From Polytrichum commune (taxonomy: Eukaryota > Streptophyta > Polytrichopsida > Polytrichales > Polytrichaceae): a stretch of 64,000 bases of DNA. The DNA is taken from assembly GCA_950295325.1 (NCBI GenBank), contig OX485804.1, positions 9,546,001-9,610,000 on the forward strand. The letters run 5' to 3'. Below are positions 5,648 through 40,950 of the stretch, one piece after another; positions within the stretch are counted from its first letter, which is position 1, and every line of letters starts with the position of its first letter. The position numbers were made by a program, and so were the translations under genes. The notes under the pieces are model-generated. The model was not told the origin of the DNA, searched no databases, and saw only the letters and a program-made list of their open reading frames with translations.

Positions 5648-8632
5648 TCAAATGTATTTCACAAAAGACGGTAGGCCATTTCGCATCTCTGCCAAACAAC
5701 CAAACACTCGCTCCAGTTGCCGTTCTACGGGCAGCCCAATGAGACCCTTCATCTCAATCCTACCACTTTCAAATGTGAGCGAGTCTCTTATACCATTCGA
5801 AGTGATGGCACAGCTGAGCATTTCAAAAGCCTCCAATTCCATGTGTGTTTCCATCACCACTGTTTTTCCTCGAGTGCGGATGCGGTGAATTCCAAGGTCG
5901 GCCGCTAATCGCTTCACGTACATGGTTTTCAGTAGCATTTCCACAGTCGGAGGTTCGGAACCGTACTCGTTTCGCATTCGATTCGTAAAGAGCATCAGAG
6001 CACTCATGCTTTCGCTGGCTGCAGTTTCGGCATCGTGCATCACTTTGTCTCGAAGTGCAGAGCTTGTGACATACTCACCGGGAATGTGTGTTGGTACTGC
6101 CAAATCCAGCTGAACCTCTGCAAATGTGACTTGCGGGAGCTTTTGGTGATCGACCTTCGACAGACCTTCAAACAGCATTTCGAGGTACAAATCGACACCG
6201 ATTTTCGCGACATCTCCACTTTGTTTCTCTCCGAAAACACTTCCGATTCCTCGGATTGCCATGTCCCGTTCCGCGAGCTGGAACCCCTGGCCTAGCCCAC
6301 AGCAATCTTCGAGGGCGACGAGTCGCTCCAATGCGTCGTCTGAGAGTTGATCTTTTGATGGGTGGAACATGTAAGCATGTGCTTCTCGATCGGCTCGACC
6401 AACTCGTCCCCGAAGCTGGTAAAGCTGCGCGAGCCCGAAGAGCTGGACGTCTTCGATGATGATGGTGTTGACGCGCCGAATGTCGAGTCCACTTTCCACG
6501 ATGCTTGTGCAGAGGAGAACAAGGAACCTGCCTTCGCCAAACTGCTCCATGGATTCCTCTAACGCAGCCGCGCTCTGTTGGCCATGAGCAACACCGATCC
6601 CAACGTTTGGGAAATATGACTCGAGAATTGCCTTTGTTTCTTCCATCCCCTTCACTCGTGGCACCACGTAGAACACTTGACCGCCGCGCTTGAGCTCAAA
6701 GTTGATGGCCTTTTTCACGAGCTCGGGTTGAAACTCAAGTAAATGAGTCGTTATTGGACGCCGCTCGGAAGGTGGTGTGGTTATCAGACTTGCATCCCGG
6801 AATCCACTAAGAGCAAGGTAAAGTGTGCGAGGGATTGGCGTTGCAGATAGAGTGAGCACATCCACTGTTGTCTTCATTGACGTAATTCGCTCTTTCTGCC
6901 TAACTCCGAACCTCTGCTCCTCGTCAACGACCAGTAGCCCAAGGTTATGGTATTTTACTTGGCTGCCGAGAAGTGCATGTGTGCCGACAACAATGCTAAG
7001 ACTCCCATCGTGGATGCCGATGATCACGTCCTTCTTCTCTGCTTCTTTCTGGAACCGACTGAGAAGCGCAACTTTCATGTGAGGGTAAGCTGCAAACCGT
7101 TCACAAATCACCTCATAATGCTGTTTCGCTAAGACAGTGGTGGGAGCAAGCACCATAGCCTGTCTGCCTGAAGCTGCAGCCAAGAAGATTGCACGCAATG
7201 CAACTTCTGTCTTTCCAAAGCCTACGTCACCGCAAATGAGGCGGTCCATCGGTGTTTCTCGCTCCGTCATGTCCCTCTCCACATCTGTGAAAGCTTGTTG
7301 CTGATCAATTGTCGCAGTGTATGGAAACTTGGCTGCAAATGAAAGCACCAAATCTGTACATTTCGGGTACACCGGTCGGGTTTGCTTCAACCGGTGGATG
7401 TAAAGCTCCATCATGTTCACAACCAGCTTCTGTATGGCAACCTTGCCTTTACTCATTCTTTTGTCCCAAAGTGTGGTATCATTCAGCTTACTAAGTGCCG
7501 GTGCACGGCCGACCTCTCCTGGGGAAAAGTATCTGTATAGCAGACGGTTCGCCTGTTTCGCCCGGAGCTTTGCAACACCATCCGAGTACTTCAAGTAGAT
7601 GTATTTTGCAGGTTTTTCCTTCCCCTCCGGAATCTCATACTTGATGCCAATGAAGCACCCTACACCCACCCGCTTGTGCACAACATACTCTCCAACTGAC
7701 AAAGTGTCAGGGTTAACTGCATATGAGAATGTCTCCTCACCAGAATCCGGTAACCCTCGCCGCTTCATCGTGTTTGAAATCGCTTGCATTCCTTGTCGCC
7801 GTTGCTCCAGTAACCGCTCCTTCATCTTCATGGCTGCTTCGGTGTCCATAGGTTTGCTGGAAGCAGACCCCATGCTTTTCCCGCCCTCGTTCTCCAGTTG
7901 TTGGTGCAGATCGTCCAGCAAGTTCGACCCCGTCTGTGAAGTACCCGATTTCCCCCGTGTTACTCCCAAAGATGGCGATACTCCTGAAAATGATGCACCT
8001 GGCCCTACAACTGGTGAAGATAGAGGAAGTGGCTTTTCTGGAATTCTCCCTTTTCGTTTTGGAGCTGCAGGTGCTTCTTGCAATGACCTCAAGGTTTCAG
8101 GTAAAGATGAGGAATGTGAATCTGAATTAGGTGATGCTAAACTACTGCTAATGTTTGGTGTGCCCTTTTCCGCTGTGTCTGTCATCCCCTGAACCCTTGC
8201 CCCTGTAACCCATCTGGATGAAGGTCCAGAATTATGAATAAACCCGCTGCTTAATCCTCTACTTGAACAACTTGAGGGTAAATGCCAACAAATAGGAACA
8301 CTATAAAAGGAGAAGGGATTCAGTTTTGTACACGAGTTTCGCCATATCCCAGGTCCATTAAACTGTGACCTACTACCTACGTATCCACACGAAGGAGAAA
8401 GCCCTCCTCCTCCTCCTATCATTTTCCTATGTCGTGTAGCTAGTGCTGATTTCCTTCTAAACCTTCTTGAAGCAGCAGTTCGTGGGAACGTCAATCGTTG
8501 CCCTAAAAATTCCTTTGATGGCACAATATCTGTGCCATGTAAGTCTCGGGTGCACAATGTGCTGTTTGCAACGATCAGTGGTCTTGATGAAGACCACTGG
8601 CCTGCAGACTCACACAAGCTCCTGAACTCCAT
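5648..8632 (-). CDS. Mfd/TRCF-like ATP-dependent DNA helicase, plastid-type
   Basis: A 994-residue intronless ORF. After a Ser/Arg-rich, poorly conserved N-terminus of ~300 residues (plausible plastid transit region plus linker) come: a CarD-like RNA-polymerase-interaction domain (~310-375, 'GEYVVHKRVGVG'); the superfamily-2 helicase core with Walker A GDVGFGKTE (~468-476), DEEQ box (~570-573), SATPIPRT (~596-603) and the VESGLDI/QLRGRVGRAD block (~712-748); the translocation-in-repair motif region (~787-806, 'AERDMAIRG'); and a TRCF C-terminal domain (~830-945). Bacterial Mfd uses these parts to push stalled RNA polymerase off DNA and recruit UvrA. The N-terminal UvrB-like and UvrA-binding modules are missing, as in the plant homologue family (e.g. 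Arabidopsis At3g02060), so UvrA recruitment is unlikely. The start at 8632 is the first Met of the open frame. The identification rests on many collinear motifs; plastid targeting is inferred. Confidence 0.93.
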   Translation of the reverse strand: MEFRSLCESAGQWSSSRPLIVANSTLCTRDLHGTDIVPSKEFLGQRLTFPRTAASRRFRRKSALATRHRKMIGGGGGLSPSCGYVGSRSQFNGPGIWRNSCTKLNPFSFYSVPICWHLPSSCSSRGLSSGFIHNSGPSSRWVTGARVQGMTDTAEKGTPNISSSLASPNSDSHSSSLPETLRSLQEAPAAPKRKGRIPEKPLPLSSPVVGPGASFSGVSPSLGVTRGKSGTSQTGSNLLDDLHQQLENEGGKSMGSASSKPMDTEAAMKMKERLLEQRRQGMQAISNTMKRRGLPDSGEETFSYAVNPDTLSVGEYVVHKRVGVGCFIGIKYEIPEGKEKPAKYIYLKYSDGVAKLRAKQANRLLYRYFSPGEVGRAPALSKLNDTTLWDKRMSKGKVAIQKLVVNMMELYIHRLKQTRPVYPKCTDLVLSFAAKFPYTATIDQQQAFTDVERDMTERETPMDRLICGDVGFGKTEVALRAIFLAAASGRQAMVLAPTTVLAKQHYEVICERFAAYPHMKVALLSRFQKEAEKKDVIIGIHDGSLSIVVGTHALLGSQVKYHNLGLLVVDEEQRFGVRQKERITSMKTTVDVLTLSATPIPRTLYLALSGFRDASLITTPPSERRPITTHLLEFQPELVKKAINFELKRGGQVFYVVPRVKGMEETKAILESYFPNVGIGVAHGQQSAAALEESMEQFGEGRFLVLLCTSIVESGLDIRRVNTIIIEDVQLFGLAQLYQLRGRVGRADREAHAYMFHPSKDQLSDDALERLVALEDCCGLGQGFQLAERDMAIRGIGSVFGEKQSGDVAKIGVDLYLEMLFEGLSKVDHQKLPQVTFAEVQLDLAVPTHIPGEYVTSSALRDKVMHDAETAASESMSALMLFTNRMRNEYGSEPPTVEMLLKTMYVKRLAADLGIHRIRTRGKTVVMETHMELEAFEMLSCAITSNGIRDSLTFESGRIEMKGLIGLPVERQLERVFGCLAEMRNGLPSFVKYI

Positions 8633-8655
8633 CTTCCTCCTTGTGTCAATGACCT

Positions 8656-9370
8656 GCGGTACTCATCAGCTCCAGAGCTGCAGTGATTTATACACGTGAA
8701 GAAACCCATCTATCATCAAACCCTTATATACTGTGCTTGTAATTGACATCACAGATGCAGTGTCCTAATTTTTTATTTCTTGAAAAACAGAACCACCGCC
8801 AAAGTGCCTCTAAACCCTAACCATTAAGTTATCCATTGCGGTACTCATTAGTTCCAGAGCTGAAGCAATTTATACACGTGAAGAAACTCATACATCATGA
8901 AACCCTTATCCTGTGCTTATGATGGACATCACAGATGCAGTGTCCTAATTTTTAGTTTCTTGAGAAATAGAATCACTGGCAAAGTGTCTCTGAACCCTAA
9001 CCATAAGGTTATCCATTACAGTGCTCAGCAGCTCTAAAGCTGAAGCAATTCATACACGTGAAGAAACTCATACATCATTAAACCCTTACACTGTGCTATA
9101 ATTGTCCTAGTCTTTAGTTTTTTATTTTTTAGTTTTTTAATACAGAATCACTGGCAAAGGGACTCTAAACCCTAACCACAAGGTTATCCCTTGCGGTCAT
9201 CATCAGCTTCAGAGCTGTAGCAGTTCATATAGTGAAAAAACTCATATATCATCAAACCCTTATATTATGGTTACATTTGACATCACAGATACAATGTTCT
9301 AGTTTTTAGTTTCTTAAAACACAGGATCACTGGCAAAGTGACTCTGAATTCTAACCGCAAGGTTATCCAC
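8656..9370. repeat. Four ~180-bp tandem repeats just upstream of the Mfd-like gene
   Basis: Units start near 8656, 8838, 9018 and 9193 (spacing 182, 180, 175). Each runs from 'gcggtactcatcagctccag' (variants) through 'tacacgtgaagaaac', 'tcatcaaacccttat', 'gacatcacagatgcagtgtc' and ends 'ctctaaaccctaaccataag', 'gttatcc'. Each unit carries an AAACCCTAA-like telo-box and an ACGTG core (degenerate in the last unit), motifs often seen in plant promoters. The first unit begins only 24 bp upstream of the helicase ATG, so the array could be 5' UTR, promoter or a 5' intron. Confidence 0.85.
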
Positions 9371-16135: not shown

Positions 16136-17639
16136 AATCAAATCATTTTCATGCTAGGATCTAACCGAATCAAGAAAAACACTTAAAACTTGGCAACCAT
16201 GACAGTACAAGCAAACTTTCATGAAATCAAGGATTGTGCTTTATGGTTGCTTGAGATAAAGATGCAAGTTTTTATATTATGTAGAGCCTTTGTATTACAT
16301 ACTTACCTAAGTCATGCCTAGTTATGAGTTGCTCAAGGGATGAAATCTCTCTACCTTCTTTGTTTCTCCTACTTTCATTTGGGCTCAAATTGAGCATCCT
16401 AGAAGAGGACCTTGAGGACAACTGTGAGCCCAAAAGGGTGCCCACATTTAGTCTTAGACCCTTGAAACGTTAGTTGATGCACTTTGAAGTAGCATGTTAC
16501 TTCACAAAAATATAAAAAGAGTGAAATGTTAGTCTTAGAAGTACCATGTTGTAAGAGGCTAGGATGTGAGTTGTTATTGTGTTTTTACCTTCGGAAGGAT
16601 TTGAGTGAATGAGGATAGGTAAGGAGAACTTGGATTGAGTAGTTAGTGAGTAGGCTAGTACAAATGGATGGAGACAACCAAAGTGACTCAAAAGGCAAGT
16701 GCATTCGAATTGGGATGAATGGAGGATCACATGGAGCGCACAAGTGGACCACCTCATCATGGCCACTTAATGGGGAAGGCCCAAGGAAGAATGCAAGGTG
16801 GAGGATAAGCAAATTCTCAAAGCACCAATCAAATCACGAGTTAAGCATCGTGGTTTGAATTAAGTGGTGAGCGACGATTTGGGAAAGTAAGGGGAGAAAG
16901 TTATGGCGGCGGAAAGCGAAGGAGGCTAAGTTTGGGTTGAAGCATCCCAAGTTTGGTAAAGTGTGGTAGGTAGAAAGCCAAGGCTAGTTAAATGTTCGAA
17001 TTAGGATCCTTGTTGATCATTTGAGGGAGGAAGACTTAGAAGATAGGATTGGCGCCTACTAAGTAGGAGGAAATCTCAAGGGCTTATCGTGAGCCTTGAG
17101 GGTGCTCACCCCCTCAAGCTTACTATATAATCCCTCATTCTTCCCTCACTCATCCTCTCTTTCCTTTGTGCTCCAAGGCACCCCACGAGTTATAAGTGTG
17201 GGTGTGGGAAGCCATATTGGAGCACATGTGTGTGCTTAGTTTTTAGTTTGAGAGCCAAGGCTTGTTAGCCTTGAAGAGGGCTTGACCTCTTGGTAGAATT
17301 AGTGTTGACGTGAAGGATTTTAAAGTTAATTCATGATTCCAATTTGTGGTACTTTAAGTTCATGTTTTGAATACACGTGGTTGCAAGTTCCATGTTTAAG
17401 AGTTGAGCACTTGATGTTGTGATGAGTGCAAAAATATACTTGTGTGGATTAGTTAGTCTTAGTGAAGTTAGGAAATTCTCTCTCCCCCTCTCCTCTCTAG
17501 GATTTTAGGATTTTAGGATTAGAGAAGAATTGTGTGATTAGAAAGGGGTTGTTAGTAGAATTAGGGAAATTAGGTAGGAAGATTAGTTAAGGGCTTGAAT
17601 AATTAGTGAGGTAGTTGGGGATTACAACTACAAAGTTGT
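16136..17639. other. Intergenic
   Basis: No gene or bounded element recognised. A short palindrome 'gagccttgagggtgctcaccc' lies near 17090, followed by 'tactatataatccc' and a CT-rich stretch, which could be a decayed promoter or LTR, but no partner LTR was found. Confidence 0.35.
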
Positions 17640-17960
17640 GGGTTCATGAAGGAGCTGGGTTTATGAAGGAGCTGGGTTTGTTTAGTTAAAAAGTAAAGAG
17701 CTGGGTTTATGAAGGACCTGGGTTTGTTTAGTTAGAAGCTAAGGAGCTGGGTTCATGAAGGAGCTGGGTTTATGAAGGAGCTGGGTTTGTTTAGTTAGAA
17801 GCTAAGGAGCTGGGTTTATGAAGAAGCTGGGTTTATGAAGGAGCTGGGTTTGTTTAGTTAGAAGCTAAGAAGCTGGGTTTATGAAGGAGCTGGGTTTATG
17901 AAGGAGCTAGGTTTATGTAATTAGAAAGTAAAGAGATGGGTTCATGAAGGAGCTTAGTAG
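17640..17960 (+). repeat. Minisatellite based on 'gagctgggtttatgaag'
   Basis: About 320 bp of nested repeats. The 17-bp core 'gagctgggtttatgaag' is reiterated and organised into a longer unit of ~60-75 bp ending 'tttgtttagttagaagctaa'. At least four longer units are seen with small differences. Confidence 0.9.
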
Positions 17961-32320: not shown

Positions 32321-32556
32321 TAGCATGCATTGTGTGCATCCGATAAGGTCTCCATATCGGAAATATAGGAGGTAGGAACCGCGTCACCAAGGTGTTGTGA
32401 ACACCTCTAGTGTGGTCGGGGGTTAGGAAGATCTCGGCTGTTGATTGGGATATGACAAATCTACCGGTCGCTATGATGTCCCAACTTCTGGCTTCTCTTT
32501 CCCTTGAGTAAAGCTTGCAAAACTTCATGTTGGATGCAATCTCCACCTCCATCCAC

Positions 32557-35500
32557 TCATGAATCTTGGAAGACATTTTTCAAACCAAGTCCTTCATTAA
32601 AAAGACTTGCGGAGGTCAAATTACCCAACGCCTCTAGTATCTCCTTTGGTCTCTCACAATTGTATAAATCCAAGGTGGTCAAGGATTGCAAATTACCCAA
32701 AGCCTTCGGTATCTCCTTCAAGCCCGTACAACCACTTAAATCCAAGGTGGTCAAGGAGGTCAAATTACCCAACGCCTCCGGTATCTCCTTCAAGCCCGTA
32801 CAACCACTTAAATCCAAGGTGGTCAAGGAGGTCAAATTACCCAACGCCTCCGGTATCTCCTTCAAGCCCTCACAATTGTTTAAATACAAGGTGGTCAAGG
32901 AGGTCAGATCACCCAACGCCTCCGGTATCTCCTTCAAGCCCTTACAACCCCTTAAATTCAAGGTGGTCAAGGAGGTCAAATTACCCAACGCCACCGGTAT
33001 CTCCTTCAAGCCCTTACAACCCCTTAAATTCAAGGTGGTCAAGGAGGTCAAATTACCCAACGCCACCGGTATCTCCTTCAAGCCCTTACAACCCCTTAAA
33101 TTCAAGGTGGTCAAGGAGGTCAAATTACCCAACGCCACCGGTATCTCCTTCAAGCTCTCACAATTGTTTAAATACAAGGTGGTCAAGGAGGTCAGATCAC
33201 CCAACGCCTCCAGTATCTCCTTCAAGCCCTCACAATTGTTTAAAGACAAGGTGGTCAAGGAGGTCAAATTACCCAACGCCTCCGGTATCTCCTTCAAGCC
33301 CGTACAACCACTTAAATACAAGGTGGTCAAGGAGGTCAAATTACCCAACGCCTCTAGTATCTCCTTTGGTGTCTCACAATTGTATAAATCCAAGGTGGTC
33401 AAGGACTGCAAATTACCCAACGCCTTCGGTATCTCCTTCAAGCCCGTACAACCACTTAAATCCAAGGTGGTCAAGGAGGTCAAATTACCCAACGCCTCCG
33501 GTATCTCCTTCAAGCCCGTACAACCACTTAAATCCAAGGTGGTCAAGGAGGTCAAATTACCCAACGCCTCCGGTATCTCCTTCAAGCCCGTACAACCACT
33601 TAAATACAAGGTGGTCAAGGAGGTCAAATTACCCAACGCCTCCGGTATCTCCTTCAAGCCCTCACAATTGTTTAAATACAAGATGGTCAAGGAGGTCAGA
33701 TCACCCAACGCCTCCGGTATCTCCTTCAAGCCCTCACAATTGTTTAAATACAAGTTGGTCAAGGAGGTCAAATTACCCAACGCCTCCGGGATCTCCTTCA
33801 AGCCCGTACAACCACTTAAATACAAGGTGGTCAAGGAGGTCAAATTACCCAACGCCTCCGGTATCTCCTTCAAGCCCGTACAACCACTTAAAGACAAGGT
33901 GGTCAAGGAGGTCAAATTACCCAACGCATCCGGTATCTCTTTCAAGCCCGTACAACCACTTAAATACAAGGTGGTCAAGGAGGTCAAACTACCCAACGCC
34001 TCCGGTATCTCCTTCAAGCCCGTACAACCACTTAAAGACAAGGTGGTCAAGGAGGTCAAATTACCCAACGCATCCGGTATCTCTTTCAAGCCCTTACAAC
34101 CCCTTAAATACAAGGTGGTCAAGGAGGTCAAATTACCCAACGCCTCCGGTATCTCCTTCAAGCCCGTGCAACCACTTAAAGACAAGGTGGTGAAGGAGGT
34201 CAAATTACCCAACGCCTCCGGTATCTCCTTCAAGCCCGTACAACCACTTAAATACAAGGTGGTCAAGGAGGTCAAATTACCCAACGCCTCCGGTATCTCC
34301 TTCAAGCCCGCACAATTGTTTAAATACAAGGTGGTCAAGGAGGTCAGATCACCCAACGCCTTCGGTATCTCCTTCATGCCCGTACAACCACTTAAATCCA
34401 AGGTGGTCAAGGAGGTCAAATTACCCAACGCCTCCGGTATCTCCTTCAAGCCTGTACAACCACTTAAATCCAAGGTGGTCAAGGAGGTCAAATTACCCAA
34501 CGCCTCCGGTATCTCCTTCAAGCCCGTACAACCACTTAAATCCAAGGTGGTCAAGGAGGTCAAATTACCCAACGCCTCCGGTATCTCCTTCAAGCCCTCA
34601 CAATTGTTTAAATACAAGGTGGTCAAGGAGGTCAGATCACCCAACGCCTCCGGTATCTCCTTCAAGCCCTCACAATTTTTTAAATACAAGTTGGTCAAGG
34701 AGGTCAAATTACCCAACGCCTCCGGTATCTCCTTCAAGCCCTCACAATTGTTTAAATACAAGTTGGTCAAGGAGGTCAAATTACCCAACGCCTCCGGTAT
34801 CTCCTTCAAGCCCGTACAACCACTTAAAGACAAGGTGGTCAAGGAGGTCAGATCACCCAACGCCTTCGGTATCTCCTTCATGCCCGTACAACCACTTAAA
34901 TCCAAGCTGGTCAAGGAGGTCAAATTACCCAACGCCTCCGGTATCTTCTTCAAGCCCGTACAACCACTTAAATCCAAGGTAGTCAAGGAGGTCAAATTAC
35001 CCAACGCCTCCGGTATCTCCTTCAAGCCCGTACAACCACTTAAAGACAAGGTGGTCAAGGAGGTCAAATTACCCAACGCATCCGGTATCTCTTTCAAGCC
35101 CTTACAACCCCTTAAATACAAGGTGGTCAAGGAGGTCAAATTACCCAACGCCTCCGGTATCTCCTTCAAGCCCGTGCAACCACTTAAAGACAAGGTGGTG
35201 AAGGAGGTCAAATTACCCAACGCCTCCGGTATCTCCTTCAAGCCCGTACAACCACTTAAATACAAGGTGGTCAAGGAGGTCAAATTACCCAACGCCTCCG
35301 GTATCTCCTTCAAGCCCGCACAATTGTTTAAATACAAGGTGGTCAAGGAGGTCAGATCACCCAACGCCTTCGGTATCTCCTTCATGCCCGTACAACCACT
35401 TAAATCCAAGGTGGTCAAGGAGGTCAAATTACCCAACGCCTCCGGTATCTCCTTCAAGCCTGTACAACCACTTAAATCCAAGGTGGTCAAGGAGGTCAAA

Positions 35501-38500
35501 TTACCCAACGCCTCCGGTATCTCCTTCAAGCCCGTACAACCACTTAAATCCAAGGTGGTCAAGGAGGTCAAATTACCCAACGCCTCCGGTATCTCCTTCA
35601 AGCCCTCACAATTGTTTAAATACAAGGTGGTCAAGGAGGTCAGATCACCCAACGCCTCCGGTATCTCCTTCAAGCCCTCACAATTTTTTAAATACAAGTT
35701 GGTCAAGGAGGTCAAATTACCCAACGCCTCCGGTATCTCCTTCAAGCCCTCACAATTGTTTAAATACAAGTTGGTCAAGGAGGTCAAATTACCCAACGCC
35801 TCCGGTATCTCCTTCAAGCCCGTACAACCACTTAAAGACAAGGTGGTCAAGGAGGTCAGATCACCCAACGCCTTCGGTATCTCCTTCATGCCCGTACAAC
35901 CACTTAAATCCAAGCTGGTCAAGGAGGTCAAATTACCCAACGCCTCCGGTATCTTCTTCAAGCCCGTACAACCACTTAAATCCAAGGTAGTCAAGGAGGT
36001 CAAATTACCCAACGCCTCCGGTATCTCCTTCAAGCCCGTACAACCACTTAAATACAAGGTGGTCAAGGAGGTCAAATTACCCAACGCCTCTAGTATCTCC
36101 TTTGGTCTCTCATAATTGTATAAATCCAAGGTGGTCAAGGACTGCAAATTACCCAACACCTTCGGTATCTCCTTCAAGCCCGTACAACCACTTAAATCCA
36201 AGGTGGTCAAGGAGGTCAAATTACCCAACGCCTCCGGTATCTCCTTCAAGCCCGTACAACCACTTAAATCCAAGGTGGTCAAGGAGGTCAAATTACCCAA
36301 CGCCTCCGGTATCTCCTTCAAGCCCGTACAATGCCATAATTTCAAGATGGTCAAGGAGGTCAAATTACCCAACGCTTCCGGTATCTCCTTCAAGCCCGTA
36401 CAACCACTTAAATCCAAGTTGGTCAAGGCGCTCAAATTACCGAACGCCTCCGGTATCTCCTTCAAGCCCGTACAACCACTTAAAGACAAGGTGGTCAAGG
36501 AGGTCAAATTACCCAACGCCTCCGGTATCTCCTTCAAGCCCGTACAACCACTTAAAGACAAGGTGGTCAAGGAGGTCAGATCACCCAACGCCTTCGGTAT
36601 CTCCTTCATGCCCGTACAACCACTTAAATCCAAGCTGGTCAAGGAGGTCAAATTACCCAACGCCTCCGGTATCTTCTTCAAGCCCGTACAACCACTTAAA
36701 TCCAAGGTAGTCAAGGAGGTCAAATTACCCAACGCCTCCGGTATCTCCTTCAAGCCCGTACAACCACTTAAATACAAGGTGGTCAAGGAGGTCAAATTAC
36801 CCAACGCCTCTAGTATCTCCTTTGGTCTCTCACAATTGTATAAATCCAAGGTGGTCAAGGAGGTCAGATCACCCAACGCCTTCGGTATCTCCTTCATGCC
36901 CGTACAACCACTTAAATCCAAGGTGGTCAAGGAGGTCAAATTACCCAACGCCTCCGGTATCTCCTTCAAGCCCGTACAACCACTTAAATCCAAGGTGGTC
37001 AAGGAGGTCAAATTACCCAACGCCTCCGGTATCTCCTTCAAGCCCGTACAATGCCATAATTTCAAGATGGTCAAGGAGGTCAAATTACCCAACGCTTCCG
37101 GTATCTCCTTCAAGCCCGTACAACCACTTAAATCCAAGTTGGTCAAGGCGCTCAAATTACCGAACGCCTCCGGTATCTCCTTCAAGCCCGTACAACCACT
37201 TAAAGACAAGGTGGTCAAGGAGGTCAAATTACCCAACGCCTCCGGTATCTCTTTCAAGCCCGTACAACCACTTAAATACAAGGTGGTCAAGGAGGTCAAA
37301 TTACCCAACGCCTCCGGTATCTCCTTCAAGCCCGTACAATGCCATAATTTCAAGATGGTCAAGGAGGTCAAATTACCCAACGCTTCCGGTATCTCCTTCA
37401 AGCCCGTACAACCACTTAAATCCAATTTGGTCAAGGGGGTCAAATTACCCAACGCCTCCGGTATCTCCTTCAAGCCCTTACAATTGCTTAAATCCAAGTT
37501 GGTCAAGGAGGTCAAATTACCCAACGCCTCTGGTATGTCCTTCAAGCCCGTACAACCACTTAAATCCAAGGCGGTCAAGGAGTGCAAATTACCCAACGCC
37601 TTTGGTATCTCCTTCAAGCCCTCACAATTGTTTAAATCCAAGGTGGTCAAGGAGGTCAAATTACCCAACGCCTCCGGTATCTCCTTCAAGCCCGTACAAC
37701 CTCTTAAATCCAAGGCGGTCAAGGAGGTCAAGTTGCCAACTTGTATAGGAACGTACTCCAAAATTCTACATCCACATAAATTTAGTTCTCTCAAAGAGGG
37801 TAGAGATCCTATGCTCTCTGGTAAGTGTTGAAATTTATAGCATTTTTGTATTGTCATTTCATTCAATGATACCAACCCATAAATACTTTCAGGTAGTGCT
37901 TTTAAGCTGGATACACCCGTAATCACCAAAACCTTCAAATGCAGAAGATTTTCCCATTTCACAAAGGAGATTGGATTTTGCATTTCTTCACCACTAGACA
38001 TGAAGATTTTTTGTTTGCAATTCACCAACAAACAACTTAGATGCTTAGAGTGGTTCACAATAGGTCCTATTGATACCAGACTCTCACACCCTTGATAATT
38101 GAACAATCGAAGAGAAGGCAATGGTTCCTTCATGTCCATGAATCTGACCTCCTTTGTTGGTTCATTGTAGGAAAGACTTTCCATGTGCCTCATATCTTTT
38201 CCAATTTCCTCATTCCATTTTGTAGCATGTATGTTCCACAAACGAGTTCCCATATAGTCGGACTGTGTTTCCACAATCATGCGGCCCATGTCTCGTAATT
38301 GGTCATGCATTTCCAAGCCTCCGTCTTTGCCAATCTTGACCAAAGATTTATCTTCCAAATGTTTCAAGGATTTTTTGGGGTTTTCGTTGATGTTGCTCCA
38401 TATTTGCAAAGCAGTTTCAACTCTTAACATACCATCCGCAAACAAATCTTTGCTAAGAAAACAACACATGTCCAAAAACATGTTCTTGTCTTCTTCATCC

Positions 38501-40950
38501 TTGAGGTCGTCAAAGCTTACTTGTAAGCACTGCCAAAGTTCCATATCGTTTTTTGAACCTAACGATCTTGCCCTTCGTAGCCTTTGCAAAGTCCTCATCC
38601 ATATGCGCACGCGATCAATTCCACATAATGTGGAACCCACAACCTTCAAGCTTAAAGGAAGTCCCCTACAAGTTTCCACAATTCTCTTCGCTATGTCTTC
38701 CACATGAGGTGGTATTTCAAAGACCCTTTGATTGTCACAAACATGTAGAGTAAACAAATTCATAGCTTCATCCAAATTCAACTCGTTTATATCCACTCGT
38801 TGAGCACCTTCAAGGCTTTCGACAAGGCCCCAATCACGAGTTGTGATGATCATTTTGTTCTTCACAGGGGCCACTTTGAAGATCTCAAGATCCATTAATT
38901 CATGGATTTGGTCTACACTACCAATGTCATCTAGAACCATGAGAGTCCTTTGCTTAGTGAATTTTTCCTCCAACAATCTTCTCCCTTCTGCAATGTCAAT
39001 CACATTCTCATGATTCACTCCTAGGTTGCTCAAAATTTCTTTCAATATTTCTAAAATACCACATCCTTGGGCTTTCATGAACGTGAAGCACGATACATCA
39101 AATTCTTGGCACATATGCTCCATCACATACTTTGCCAAAGTGGTTTTCCCCATTCCACCCATCCCGATGATGACCACCATCGAGTGCTTAACCAATTCCG
39201 TTATCACCTTTAACTTTCTTTTGTCCATACCAACAAGCTTCTGTGCACCATTGTGTTGAGCCTTTGTCCTCGTGAGTTCCATGCAATGTATGGATCCGAC
39301 TAACACATCGCATTCTCCTTTGTTTGCATATGTACTAGCCGGAATGTTCACATGATCCACACCGTTCATCTTTCCTGATATAAACCAAACACATGCCCTT
39401 ATCCAACTTACCATCACTTGGAACCACAACCAAAAACAAGATACAAGAGCTTGAAGCAAATGGAACCGATTTTGCCCAAAGGTGTTAAGATTGATCCAAC
39501 CATTCGAGATATTTTGAGTATTCTCCAAAAGCTCCCCTTTTACTTTGCCAAGCCTCATACAAATATGTTCAAACGTTGGCCTTTCTGACGGTTGTAGACA
39601 CCAACATTGTTCTATCAAAGCTGCCAAGGACTTAGGGCAATCAAGGGGCAACTTTGGTCGTTCTCCATCCTCCATACTTTTCTTTATAGATGATGGAGTC
39701 CTTCCTTGAAATGGTGTGGTTGTGGTGAGAACATATGAACACAACATGGCAAAACTAAATACATCGCTTTTGAAAGCATTTGCCTTGCCACCTTTGAGAA
39801 AAGTCTCCGGAGCTCTATACCCAGTCGTTCCTAATTTTCCCAAAGTTGGCTCCTCATACACATCCTTGGCTTTGATTTTTGCAATTCCGAAGTCCGCCAA
39901 CTTCACTTTCACATAACCCATCCCATCCAACTTAGAGTCCCCCCAAAAGTTGACAAGGACATTTTCAGGTTTCAAATCACGATGAGCAACATTCATGTCG
40001 TGAAGGTAAAACATACCTCTTGCAATCTGCATTATAATATCAATGGTAACAAGATAAGATTTTCTCAAAGTCTTGTTGTCCAAATGATCTGCAAGGTTCT
40101 TGTCCATTTTTTCCATCACTATGTAATTCCCAAACTTTTGGTTGTCCAAGATTTCCCCACAACAAATGAACTTAATAATATTGGGATGGCTCAACCCTGC
40201 TAAAACACCCACTTCCTTCCTATAATTTGCATTTGACATAATGATATATTCTTCACCATCAACCTTTTCAAAAACCTTCGCTGCAACGTCTAGGCCAAAA
40301 CACTTTGTCATATATACTTGTCCAACACTACCAATGCCCAGTGATGTTGTCAGTTCAGGACTCCAATGATATGTGGGAAAATTAACAACATCCAACTCCC
40401 GGCCTTCCCCATCCATTCGACAACTCAACCGCTTATGGGCATGCTTCACAATCTCTTGCTCTTCAGGAGATTCTTTTGTTGCTTGAATATGTGCCAACAA
40501 ACGGGACTCCAACGCCTCTTGGTCTTTCTCCACCTCCAAAAATTTGATTGGACTAAAGTTGATGGATTCTTGAAGGCCATGTACATTTACACCCATTGAT
40601 TGAAATTGGCCACACATTGTGTCAAAATTGCATCTCAACTCTTCAAGTACCTCTCGAAACTCCTCTTCATTGTCCATTTGCCATAGTGATGCACGAACCC
40701 AATCAACCTTACCACAATCTTGGATTATTACCTCAACTCTCTTCATAACTCGATACAAATCCTCCATACTTGATCCAAGCTTGACCTTTCCATGCAAAGT
40801 TTTCACCATGCTTTGGATACCCTCCACAAGAAGAGATGATATGTTTGTCATGTGCAAACATTGGTTTCCATTCAACAAATTTGATCCTCGCACCAACTTC
40901 TTCATTTGTGTTGAGCATTGGACCAATAGTAGCATGAAGTTCTCGTCCAT
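32557..40950 (-). CDS. Kinase-NB-ARC-LRR immune receptor with ~71 LRRs
   Basis: One intronless ORF of 2797 residues. Residues 1-180: helical region with an 'EDLYRVMKRVE...DW.RASLW' pattern recalling HeLo/RPW8-like four-helix domains (inference). Residues ~202-470: protein kinase with GIGSVGQV loop, Lys225 (VAAK), HRD 323-325, DFG 353-355, APE 380-382, so catalytically competent in appearance. Residues ~494-526: very hydrophobic linker. Residues ~575-900: NB-ARC with P-loop GMGGMGKTT (596-604), kinase-2 LMVLDDI (670-676), RNBS-B ITTR, GLPL (763-766), RNBS-D FLDMCCF, MHD (881-883). From ~1005 to the end: LRRs, about 71 of them near-identical 24-residue units. Such proteins act as intracellular immune receptors; kinase-NBS-LRR fusions are known in mosses. 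The start is the first Met of the frame. The LRR number is far above the usual 10-40 of plant NLRs. Confidence 0.92.
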   Translation of the reverse strand: MDENFMLLLVQCSTQMKKLVRGSNLLNGNQCLHMTNISSLLVEGIQSMVKTLHGKVKLGSSMEDLYRVMKRVEVIIQDCGKVDWVRASLWQMDNEEEFREVLEELRCNFDTMCGQFQSMGVNVHGLQESINFSPIKFLEVEKDQEALESRLLAHIQATKESPEEQEIVKHAHKRLSCRMDGEGRELDVVNFPTYHWSPELTTSLGIGSVGQVYMTKCFGLDVAAKVFEKVDGEEYIIMSNANYRKEVGVLAGLSHPNIIKFICCGEILDNQKFGNYIVMEKMDKNLADHLDNKTLRKSYLVTIDIIMQIARGMFYLHDMNVAHRDLKPENVLVNFWGDSKLDGMGYVKVKLADFGIAKIKAKDVYEEPTLGKLGTTGYRAPETFLKGGKANAFKSDVFSFAMLCSYVLTTTTPFQGRTPSSIKKSMEDGERPKLPLDCPKSLAALIEQCWCLQPSERPTFEHICMRLGKVKGELLENTQNISNGWINLNTFGQNRFHLLQALVSCFWLWFQVMVSWIRACVWFISGKMNGVDHVNIPASTYANKGECDVLVGSIHCMELTRTKAQHNGAQKLVGMDKRKLKVITELVKHSMVVIIGMGGMGKTTLAKYVMEHMCQEFDVSCFTFMKAQGCGILEILKEILSNLGVNHENVIDIAEGRRLLEEKFTKQRTLMVLDDIGSVDQIHELMDLEIFKVAPVKNKMIITTRDWGLVESLEGAQRVDINELNLDEAMNLFTLHVCDNQRVFEIPPHVEDIAKRIVETCRGLPLSLKVVGSTLCGIDRVRIWMRTLQRLRRARSLGSKNDMELWQCLQVSFDDLKDEEDKNMFLDMCCFLSKDLFADGMLRVETALQIWSNINENPKKSLKHLEDKSLVKIGKDGGLEMHDQLRDMGRMIVETQSDYMGTRLWNIHATKWNEEIGKDMRHMESLSYNEPTKEVRFMDMKEPLPSLRLFNYQGCESLVSIGPIVNHSKHLSCLLVNCKQKIFMSSGEEMQNPISFVKWENLLHLKVLVITGVSSLKALPESIYGLVSLNEMTIQKCYKFQHLPESIGSLPSLRELNLCGCRILEYVPIQVGNLTSLTALDLRGCTGLKEIPEALGNLTSLTTLDLNNCEGLKEIPKALGNLHSLTALDLSGCTGLKDIPEALGNLTSLTNLDLSNCKGLKEIPEALGNLTPLTKLDLSGCTGLKEIPEALGNLTSLTILKLWHCTGLKEIPEALGNLTSLTTLYLSGCTGLKEIPEALGNLTSLTTLSLSGCTGLKEIPEAFGNLSALTNLDLSGCTGLKEIPEALGNLTSLTILKLWHCTGLKEIPEALGNLTSLTTLDLSGCTGLKEIPEALGNLTSLTTLDLSGCTGMKEIPKALGDLTSLTTLDLYNCERPKEILEALGNLTSLTTLYLSGCTGLKEIPEALGNLTSLTTLDLSGCTGLKKIPEALGNLTSLTSLDLSGCTGMKEIPKALGDLTSLTTLSLSGCTGLKEIPEALGNLTSLTTLSLSGCTGLKEIPEAFGNLSALTNLDLSGCTGLKEIPEALGNLTSLTILKLWHCTGLKEIPEALGNLTSLTTLDLSGCTGLKEIPEALGNLTSLTTLDLSGCTGLKEIPKVLGNLQSLTTLDLYNYERPKEILEALGNLTSLTTLYLSGCTGLKEIPEALGNLTSLTTLDLSGCTGLKKIPEALGNLTSLTSLDLSGCTGMKEIPKALGDLTSLTTLSLSGCTGLKEIPEALGNLTSLTNLYLNNCEGLKEIPEALGNLTSLTNLYLKNCEGLKEIPEALGDLTSLTTLYLNNCEGLKEIPEALGNLTSLTTLDLSGCTGLKEIPEALGNLTSLTTLDLSGCTGLKEIPEALGNLTSLTTLDLSGCTGMKEIPKALGDLTSLTTLYLNNCAGLKEIPEALGNLTSLTTLYLSGCTGLKEIPEALGNLTSFTTLSLSGCTGLKEIPEALGNLTSLTTLYLRGCKGLKEIPDALGNLTSLTTLSLSGCTGLKEIPEALGNLTSLTTLDLSGCTGLKKIPEALGNLTSLTSLDLSGCTGMKEIPKALGDLTSLTTLSLSGCTGLKEIPEALGNLTSLTNLYLNNCEGLKEIPEALGNLTSLTNLYLKNCEGLKEIPEALGDLTSLTTLYLNNCEGLKEIPEALGNLTSLTTLDLSGCTGLKEIPEALGNLTSLTTLDLSGCTGLKEIPEALGNLTSLTTLDLSGCTGMKEIPKALGDLTSLTTLYLNNCAGLKEIPEALGNLTSLTTLYLSGCTGLKEIPEALGNLTSFTTLSLSGCTGLKEIPEALGNLTSLTTLYLRGCKGLKEIPDALGNLTSLTTLSLSGCTGLKEIPEALGSLTSLTTLYLSGCTGLKEIPDALGNLTSLTTLSLSGCTGLKEIPEALGNLTSLTTLYLSGCTGLKEIPEALGNLTSLTNLYLNNCEGLKEIPEALGDLTSLTILYLNNCEGLKEIPEALGNLTSLTTLYLSGCTGLKEIPEALGNLTSLTTLDLSGCTGLKEIPEALGNLTSLTTLDLSGCTGLKEIPKALGNLQSLTTLDLYNCETPKEILEALGNLTSLTTLYLSGCTGLKEIPEALGNLTSLTTLSLNNCEGLKEILEALGDLTSLTTLYLNNCESLKEIPVALGNLTSLTTLNLRGCKGLKEIPVALGNLTSLTTLNLRGCKGLKEIPVALGNLTSLTTLNLRGCKGLKEIPEALGDLTSLTTLYLNNCEGLKEIPEALGNLTSLTTLDLSGCTGLKEIPEALGNLTSLTTLDLSGCTGLKEIPKALGNLQSLTTLDLYNCERPKEILEALGNLTSASLFNEGLGLKNVFQDS
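32600..37745 (-). repeat. 72-bp tandem repeat array encoding the LRRs (~71 units)
   Basis: Every unit is 72 bp (24 codons) and no unit breaks the frame. Identical landmarks recur at exact multiples of 72: 'gtatcttctt' at 34941, 35949 and 36669 (steps of 1008 and 720), and 'atgccataat' at 36331, 37051 and ~37339 (steps of 720 and 288). So blocks of 14, 10 and 4 units were duplicated by in-register unequal exchange. Because the unit lacks stops on the opposite strand, it also produces long antisense ORFs that are not genes. Confidence 0.95.

Follow-up and report, generated by a model that had tools for sequence, protein, structure and literature searches.

We describe here a gene, W, found on the minus strand (32557-40950) of a 64,000-nucleotide stretch of the Polytrichum commune genome (assembly GCA_950295325.1, contig OX485804.1, here C2:9546001-9610000; hereafter the window, to which positions without a contig label refer). 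Its single open reading frame (ORF) joins a protein kinase, an NB-ARC domain and a continuous array of 71 leucine-rich repeat (LRR) units, and we consider it likely that it encodes an immune receptor of the nucleotide-binding LRR (NLR) class whose array is rewritten as units are exchanged unequally, their backbone being homogenised and their exposed positions diversified. All data come from one genome assembly (408 Mb in 64 contigs), in which paralogues were compared, not individuals. The evidence consists of the anatomy of W, a block duplication that separates two sister genes, B29 and B30, the turnover of arrays between other paralogues, the concentration of change on the predicted beta-strand of each unit, and the constraint on core positions in pairwise comparisons.

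The ORF runs from ATG to TGA over 2,797 amino acids (aa) and begins with an N-terminal region (aa 1-199; 40354-40950), followed by the kinase domain (aa 200-467; 39550-40353), identified by Pfam and by the presence of the glycine loop, VAAK, HRDLKPEN and DFG motifs. The NB-ARC domain (aa 581-814; 38509-39210) scores 99.4 bits against a Pfam cut-off of 23.5 and carries the P-loop, kinase-2, GLP and MHD motifs. Then follow a winged-helix domain matching Pfam WHD_ROQ1 (aa 817-897; 38260-38502), an entry region of irregular LRRs seen in both translation and structure model (aa 960-1073; 37732-38073), the array itself (aa 1074-2777; 32620-37731), and a tail of 20 aa plus stop codon (32557-32619). 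A C-terminal LRR solenoid is indicated by Pfam, an AlphaFold2 model and comparisons with the PDB, in which the closest sequence match to W is Roq1, over the Roq1 LRRs; W thereby combines the NB-ARC motif set and the C-terminal LRR solenoid by which plant NLRs are defined. Among the 25 of 32 Pfam families listed, neither a further domain in the tail, nor LRRNT/LRRCT caps, nor ROC-COR were found in W. For the N-terminal region, 15 family members were scanned: sub-threshold matches to MLKL_N occur in eight of them (best E 0.0054) and ATG17_like matches in seven (best E 3.2e-05), W itself having neither. Judged from these matches, the family possibly carries an N-terminal helical executioner domain, which we do not claim, as the MLKL_N signal is weak, a PDB profile search gave chance-like results (best E 0.096), and the fold model reached a predicted local distance difference test (pLDDT) score of 35.

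The original prediction of an LRR array of about 71 modules of 24 residues was borne out. Tandem Repeats Finder (TRF) reports 71.1 copies with a period of 72 at 32611-37731 (90% matches, 0% indels), and reading unit by unit along the minus strand from 37731 to 32620 yields 71 in-frame units of exactly 24 codons, with no stop and no frameshift, and with the consensus LTSLTTLDLSGCTGLKEIPEALGN. Several long ORFs on the plus strand overlap the array as well, among them those of 1,203 aa (32504-36115), 571 aa and 528 aa, and these are probably a by-product of the in-frame 72-bp repetition. Mean pairwise identity between units is 0.817 in protein and 0.886 in DNA, the DNA figure including one irregular pre-array unit. 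An initial estimate of perhaps a dozen module types proved too low, since the array holds 34 distinct units in protein and 39 in DNA, with 19 distinct strand 7-mers (unit positions 5-11) and 20 signatures at positions 6, 8, 10, 11 and 13.

That the differences between units gather on the beta-strand positions was also confirmed. Departures from the consensus number 198 residues, with 107 of them at strand-exposed positions 5, 6, 8, 10 and 11 (five of the 24 positions) and 15 at the eight core positions; positions 6, 8, 10, 11 and 13 account for 131. An AlphaFold2 model of aa 960-1649, built on an alignment of four window segments, forms a regular solenoid (mean pLDDT 86, predicted template modelling score 0.77) in which the units form a strand at positions 6-8 and a helix at positions 20-24. 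Positions 6 and 8 fall in the strand, and 10, 11 and 13 after it. Among the best PDB folds for this model are SHOC2 and LRR ectodomains from plant receptor kinases. The solenoid model that had been proposed as a check places the variable positions in the strand and the turn that follows; that they are exposed on the concave side is predicted from what is known of LRR folds, not from coordinates.

The order of the units within W gives a first view of how the array has changed. Recurring pairs of neighbouring units number 19, against a mean of 1.2 and a maximum of 6 in 2,000 shuffles. The largest recurring block comprises units 24-36 (counted from 0; 35068-36003, minus strand), which are identical to units 38-50 (34060-34995, minus strand), exact identity spanning 1,055 bp. 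We therefore reject free cassette shuffling for W, because unit order recurs in blocks; the module order does vary, as first proposed, and it does so block by block. At a finer scale, the 39 DNA types offer 23 informative sites, and all four gametes were seen in 22 of 88 site pairs within 12 bp and in 58 of 93 pairs separated by more than 24 bp, so that linkage between variable sites drops with distance inside the unit. This pattern fits exchange inside units, which would create new module types, with a contribution from recurrent mutation. One could also imagine that module order forms a code, as in transcription activator-like (TAL) effectors, with one module type for each element of a ligand. 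In favour of this, module types do recur in W, and the five positions that vary most yield 20 signatures. Yet order recurs in blocks rather than freely, and LRRs usually bind proteins through many repeats acting jointly, which makes such a code highly improbable.

W belongs to a large family. Its 3,219 bp of pre-array sequence match 12 loci at 89% identity or more and 28 others at 68-73%, giving at least some 40 related loci, a lower bound tallied from 65 match rows with 40 of 167 candidates scored. A search with the W array gave at least 194 matches from the best 150 of 3,662 candidates, and those listed lie, by eye, at or within a few kb of family loci. Arrays were read at 30 loci (31 rows, one locus being split in two), and mean pairwise protein identity between units is at least 0.75 in 29 of the 31 rows and at least 0.85 in two. 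Units of W are 0.886 alike in DNA, compared with 0.819 to units of the other loci compared, and 79% of 72 units (the 71 plus the irregular pre-array unit) have their nearest relative within W, with another 15% tied. The closest clade comprises 12 genes, which besides W are labelled A15, A16, A18, A20, B11, B12, B29, B30, B31, C3 and C27. Here pre-array identity is 88.9-100%, pre-array dN/dS is 0.22-0.46 in eight pairs, and in-frame arrays range from 25 to 108 units. Five kinase-NLR genes (L011, L012, L029, L030 and L031) stand on one strand, 35-41 kb apart, at C6:37.185-37.348 Mb, with 77, 30, 108, 64 and 25 in-frame units, respectively.

The clearest picture of array change comes from B29 (C6:37264815) and B30 (C6:37302959). 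These two members of the five-gene C6 cluster differ by one base in 3,216 pre-array positions (99.97% identity), and identity in their flanks is 99.975% (3,956 bp) and 99.90% (2,018 bp). Nevertheless, the B29 array has 108 units versus 64 in B30, a difference that is explained by a single in-frame tandem duplication of units 6-49 (44 units, 3,168 bp), aside from which the two arrays show no point differences. The junction lies at a unit border, in a 33-bp stretch common to units that otherwise differ at 14 and 10 of 72 bases. Judged by its sequence, this difference is the signature of unequal exchange. Thus, the part of the original prediction that concerned unequal crossing-over holds for unit number, and the free reshuffling of cassettes does not. 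B12 equals B29 and B30 over all 1,872 bp available pre-array. Its first 16 units follow their order too, with single mismatches at two places; beyond them the array diverges.

The exactness of the B29 duplication could reflect either a very recent history or an assembly error, and the more general concern that arrays were collapsed or falsely expanded in assembly has to be considered. Short-read assemblies have been found unreliable for comparable fungal arrays (PMC12222747; here and below, cited papers are drawn on for those parts of their text that were accessible). Conversely, the present assembly has contigs of 42-70 Mb among its 64, which suggests long reads; C2-C7 measure 42-70 Mb each and matches on C1 reach 69.5 Mb, making seven chromosome-sized contigs. 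Furthermore, the W units are all in register and comprise 39 distinct DNA sequences, and similar arrays were read at 30 loci. We therefore regard misassembly as a very unlikely source of the arrays. If B29 and B30 testify to rearrangement on a short evolutionary scale, might arrays also be rearranged somatically, so that one plant holds different versions, as in the variable lymphocyte receptors (VLRs) of lampreys? Arrays in the fungus Podospora do rearrange during vegetative growth (PMC2873952). Against this, the frame of W is open and complete in the assembly, unlike that of an incomplete germline gene, and on the one assembly examined we consider somatic rearrangement very improbable.

Unequal exchange between units would also account for the turnover seen at other paralogues. 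W and C3, which lies on another chromosome, form a segmental duplication, with 98.94% identity pre-array, 97.7% over 8,078 upstream alignment columns and 98.1% over 1,023 downstream. In contrast, their arrays of 71 and 33 units have one exact unit type in common, and their orders do not align. The nearest relatives of the 33 C3 units are found in A15 (16.1, ties being shared), in W (11.2) and, for the rest, in A18, A20 and A16, all of the same clade. No distant donor was present among the arrays compared, and the replacement of an array from a distant paralogue was rejected as the cause of the difference between C3 and W. Likewise, A16 is 97.1% identical to W pre-array, and among its 44 in-frame units none matches a W unit exactly. 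As a separate observation, at C2:1270959-1278265 (L016 and L017) several array matches recur 3,454 bp farther on, and part of the array and the sequence after it thus look tandemly duplicated; the offset is not a multiple of 72, and of the ~116 units of repeat DNA there only the first 44 are in frame.

In order to weigh selection, site groups were set from the LRR motif, with positions 5, 6, 8, 10 and 11 as strand-exposed and 1, 4, 7, 9, 12, 15, 18 and 22 as core. The group 6, 8, 10, 11 and 13, with a ratio of nonsynonymous to synonymous differences (pN/pS) of 2.59, was set aside in favour of the motif-derived group, having been chosen post hoc. In pairwise comparisons, where the 'other exposed' group excludes position 13, pN/pS for W is 2.25 on the strand (bootstrap 1.63-3.49), 0.22 in the core (0.12-0.34) and 0.92 elsewhere. 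The corresponding values for strand, core and elsewhere are 1.56, 0.49 and 0.67 in a pool of six genes (the A pool: W, C3, A15, A16, A18 and A20), and 1.48, 0.25 and 0.47 in a B pool; single arrays give strand ratios of 1.76 (A18), 1.48 (B11) and 1.59 (B30). Because pairwise ratios weight shared ancestry, nonsynonymous (N) and synonymous (S) events were also counted on minimum spanning trees, with kappa set to 1, 2 and 4 and edges of more than four changes skipped (4 of 38 for W, 25 of 204 for the A pool, 20 of 120 for W+A16+A18, 9 of 79 for B11+B29+B30, and 62 of 275 for distant loci). Strand events in the A pool then stand at N133:S19 (p 0.0015 to 5e-6), and in 14 more distant loci at N166:S42 (p 0.25-0.009). 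Core events are N4:S6 in W, N4:S5 in B and N16:S44 in the distant loci, the last indicating strong constraint. The strand compared with core and other positions together gives Fisher p values of 0.06 for W, 2e-7 for A, 0.001 for W+A16+A18, 0.005 for B and 2e-9 for the 14 distant loci. In a control over all 4,368 choices of five positions from the 16 non-core positions, the observed pN is reached by 30 choices in A and 91 in B, and the observed pN-pS by 432 in A, 72 in B and 490 in C27. Change thus concentrates clearly on the strand in W and in both pools, and C27 does not show this.

Several results weigh against our main reading of W as a working sensor, rewritten by unequal exchange and diversified by selection on its exposed face. 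For W alone, strand events number N18:S2 (p 0.12-0.05), which is not significant, and neither is the count for B11+B29+B30 (N36:S8, p 0.20-0.07); for W+A16+A18 (N69:S12) p ranges from 0.056 to 0.004 depending on kappa. The interval of the strand pN/pS includes 1 in A16 (1.15, 0.93-1.61) and C27 (1.12, 0.93-1.42), and C27 lacks strand concentration, its pN being reached in 1,039 of the 4,368 site choices; in W, 112 choices reach the observed pN and 462 the observed pN-pS. Unit position 5, one of the strand-exposed group, is invariant throughout W. Core events in the A pool (N37:S17, w 0.67-1.38) show no clear constraint, and W is the only gene in that pool to keep its frame to the end of the array. 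Furthermore, in 11 of 30 array rows the share of units whose nearest relative lies in the gene itself does not exceed 25%; among these rows, the set includes a close copy for L011/L012 and for L016/L017.

The integrity of the clade points the same way, as only four of the 12 genes (W, B11, B29 and B30) keep the frame to the array end and eight have stops, frame breaks or an interruption before it. Counted from the array start, in-frame units number 71 in W, 33 in C3 (one stop), 29 in A15 (five units with stops), 44 in A16, 56 in A18, 40 in A20, 77 in B11, 30 in B12, 108 in B29, 64 in B30, 25 in B31 and 61 in C27 (two units with stops). Repeat DNA continues past the frame break to a total of ~116 units in A16, ~66 in A18, at least 45 in A20, at least 92 in B31 and at least 68 in C27. 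It should be noted that any-frame unit counting served for these lengths only, as its count of frame changes is uninformative (20 even for intact W). A16 and B31 are open from the ATG to the frame break and A18 is open in the part examined, the frame of A20 breaks already ahead of the array, and in B12 other DNA follows the 30 units, with further units farther along. C3, the ~99% identical sister of W, is a broken copy with two stops before the array and one inside it, and the W/C3 pair therefore shows array turnover and not two working genes. So many interrupted frames would suggest that many family members are decaying, or that small assembly errors are present.

This leads to the question of whether the array could be no more than a coding minisatellite, in which slippage and unequal exchange expand the repeat, the backbone is constrained where genes work, and the surface is merely free to vary, without adaptive value. 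The shortfall of single-gene event counts from significance for positive selection, the wide copy-number variation among clade arrays, and the breaks found in eight of 12 genes, some deep in continuing repeat DNA (after 44 of ~116 units in A16, and 25 of at least 92 in B31), all speak for such a process. Against it stand the nonsynonymous excess on the strand in the six-gene pool, pairwise strand ratios above 1 in W and in both pools, and the excess of the strand over other positions, which is pronounced in the A pool and the distant loci and borderline in W alone. We consider the minisatellite explanation unlikely. Positive selection at strand positions is thus supported in the pool and only suggested in W alone, where, with event counts not significant, we do not call it for the single gene.

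Taken together, unequal exchange between units, both within a gene and between sister genes, would duplicate or delete whole in-frame blocks. Within a gene, such exchange would maintain similar backbones from unit to unit (concerted evolution); it would also let the array change in length and order far more quickly than the remainder of the gene, and would spread new variants. Selection would preserve the leucines of the backbone, and variation is probably favoured at those exposed beta-strand positions that are predicted to lie on the inner side of the solenoid. As for function, the array would likely detect non-self, upon which the NB-ARC and in turn the kinase arm would be switched. We infer that W is expressed, acts in immunity and signals through the kinase, with array content setting specificity.

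W has its closest parallels in the NLRs of the fungus Podospora, in Cf-2/Cf-5 of tomato and in the LRR-ROCO genes of brown algae; none of them is a kinase-NLR with a continuous array this long. The Podospora HNWD genes and other fungal NLRs likewise have an NLR-type switch and near-identical tandem repeats at the C-terminus (PMC2873952, PMC4986451, PMC12222747), show concerted evolution within and between family members and variation in repeat number, and are reported to be under diversifying selection at four exposed positions per repeat, as is suggested for W. Rearrangements of HNWD were found in most of 143 selected mutants (PMC2873952), and were thus observed directly, whereas in the W family rearrangement is deduced from paralogues only. 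The fungal repeats are WD40, ANK or TPR, with no LRR found (PMC4986451), the Podospora genes combine NACHT with HET where W has NB-ARC and a kinase, and functional alleles of het-d and het-e usually carry 11 conserved repeats compared with 71 in W and up to 108 in a sister gene. As such, W would work like one of these genes without being a member. Its mean unit identity of 0.817 compares with a criterion of >85% over at least 100 aa in PMC4986451, where the measure differs from ours.

Among plants, the Physcomitrium genes that join protein kinase, nucleotide-binding site and LRR (PK-NBS-LRR, or PNL; the class of Xue 2012) share with W the N-terminal kinase joined to NB-ARC and then LRR. Phase-0 introns between their domains are conserved (PMC3352924, PMC3991678), whereas W is a single ORF across the PK/NBS and NBS/LRR borders and needs no introns, and therefore we claim the architecture and not membership of the PNL class. 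The accessible text of both papers makes no mention of long near-identical arrays in PNL genes. The kinase domain of a P. patens receptor of this type produced a modest, variable response in Nicotiana benthamiana (PMC11218826). No report of a bryophyte NLR with such arrays was found in the literature searched, in which subscription papers were thinly covered and bioRxiv preprints were outside the search.

Further likenesses are found in LRR genes that are not kinase-NLRs. Cf-2 and Cf-5 are cell-surface receptor-like proteins not known to carry a kinase or NB-ARC, and the 90-bp-exon LRR genes of Tetrahymena are not known as NLRs. In Cf-2/Cf-5, which likewise serve plant immunity, recombination has varied the LRR count between 25 and 38 (PMC10515242, citing Dixon 1998), in arrays shorter than that of W. 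In brown-algal ROCO genes, 72-bp LRR modules are shuffled and concave sites 14, 16, 18 and 19 are positively selected (PMC11378527), sites that share their spacing (2,2,1) with W unit positions 6, 8, 10 and 11, a possible case of convergence. There, each LRR is a separate 72-bp phase-2 exon subject to alternative splicing and the protein carries a ROC-COR GTPase; W has no such one-LRR-per-exon layout, its array being one continuous ORF. Tetrahymena genes resemble W in their tandem modules and ectopic recombination (1 to 51 exons of 90 bp per gene in T. thermophila), and differ in that these exons are separated by phase-2 introns (PMC6564038).

The lamprey and TAL comparisons of the original prediction did not hold up against the anatomy. 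Lamprey VLRs, which also draw their diversity from LRR modules, are assembled somatically from cassettes into secreted or anchored proteins with capped LRRs, and TAL effectors consist of ~34-aa helical repeats with a two-residue code. W, instead, is a single ORF that ends 20 aa past the array without cap families among those listed, and its 24-aa units have both a strand and a helix.

Elsewhere in the window, a 994-aa ORF on the minus strand (5648-8632) with DEAD helicase, Helicase_C, TRCF and CarD-like matches resembles a bacterial-type transcription-repair coupling factor, and a 180-bp tandem repeat of four copies (8655-9369) lies directly upstream of its ATG. Tandem arrays with periods of 17, 46 and 63 bp occupy 17639-17954, in a region with a strong skew of G over C.

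In the literature examined here, homogenised, length-variable NLR sensors have so far been described from fungi, with WD, ANK or TPR repeats. The same dynamics in an LRR-type plant NLR, if true, would suggest that this strategy arose more than once. A bolder extension holds that these kinase-NLRs are a germline-plastic recognition system and the plant LRR counterpart of fungal HNWD, with arrays of up to ~100 LRRs rewritten by block exchange, such that individuals, and perhaps shoots of one haploid clone, would differ and array content would set the specificity of non-self or allorecognition; in this full form we find it doubtful, and would not expect it to be correct. A warning also follows: where bryophyte NLRs are surveyed with short reads, genes of this kind may be miscounted or truncated. 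With arrays of up to 108 units, B29 and B30 make up a near-perfect before-and-after pair within one genome. If our reading is true, this plant would offer a way to measure the pace at which an immune sensor is rewritten, and to learn whether block exchange changes what it recognises.

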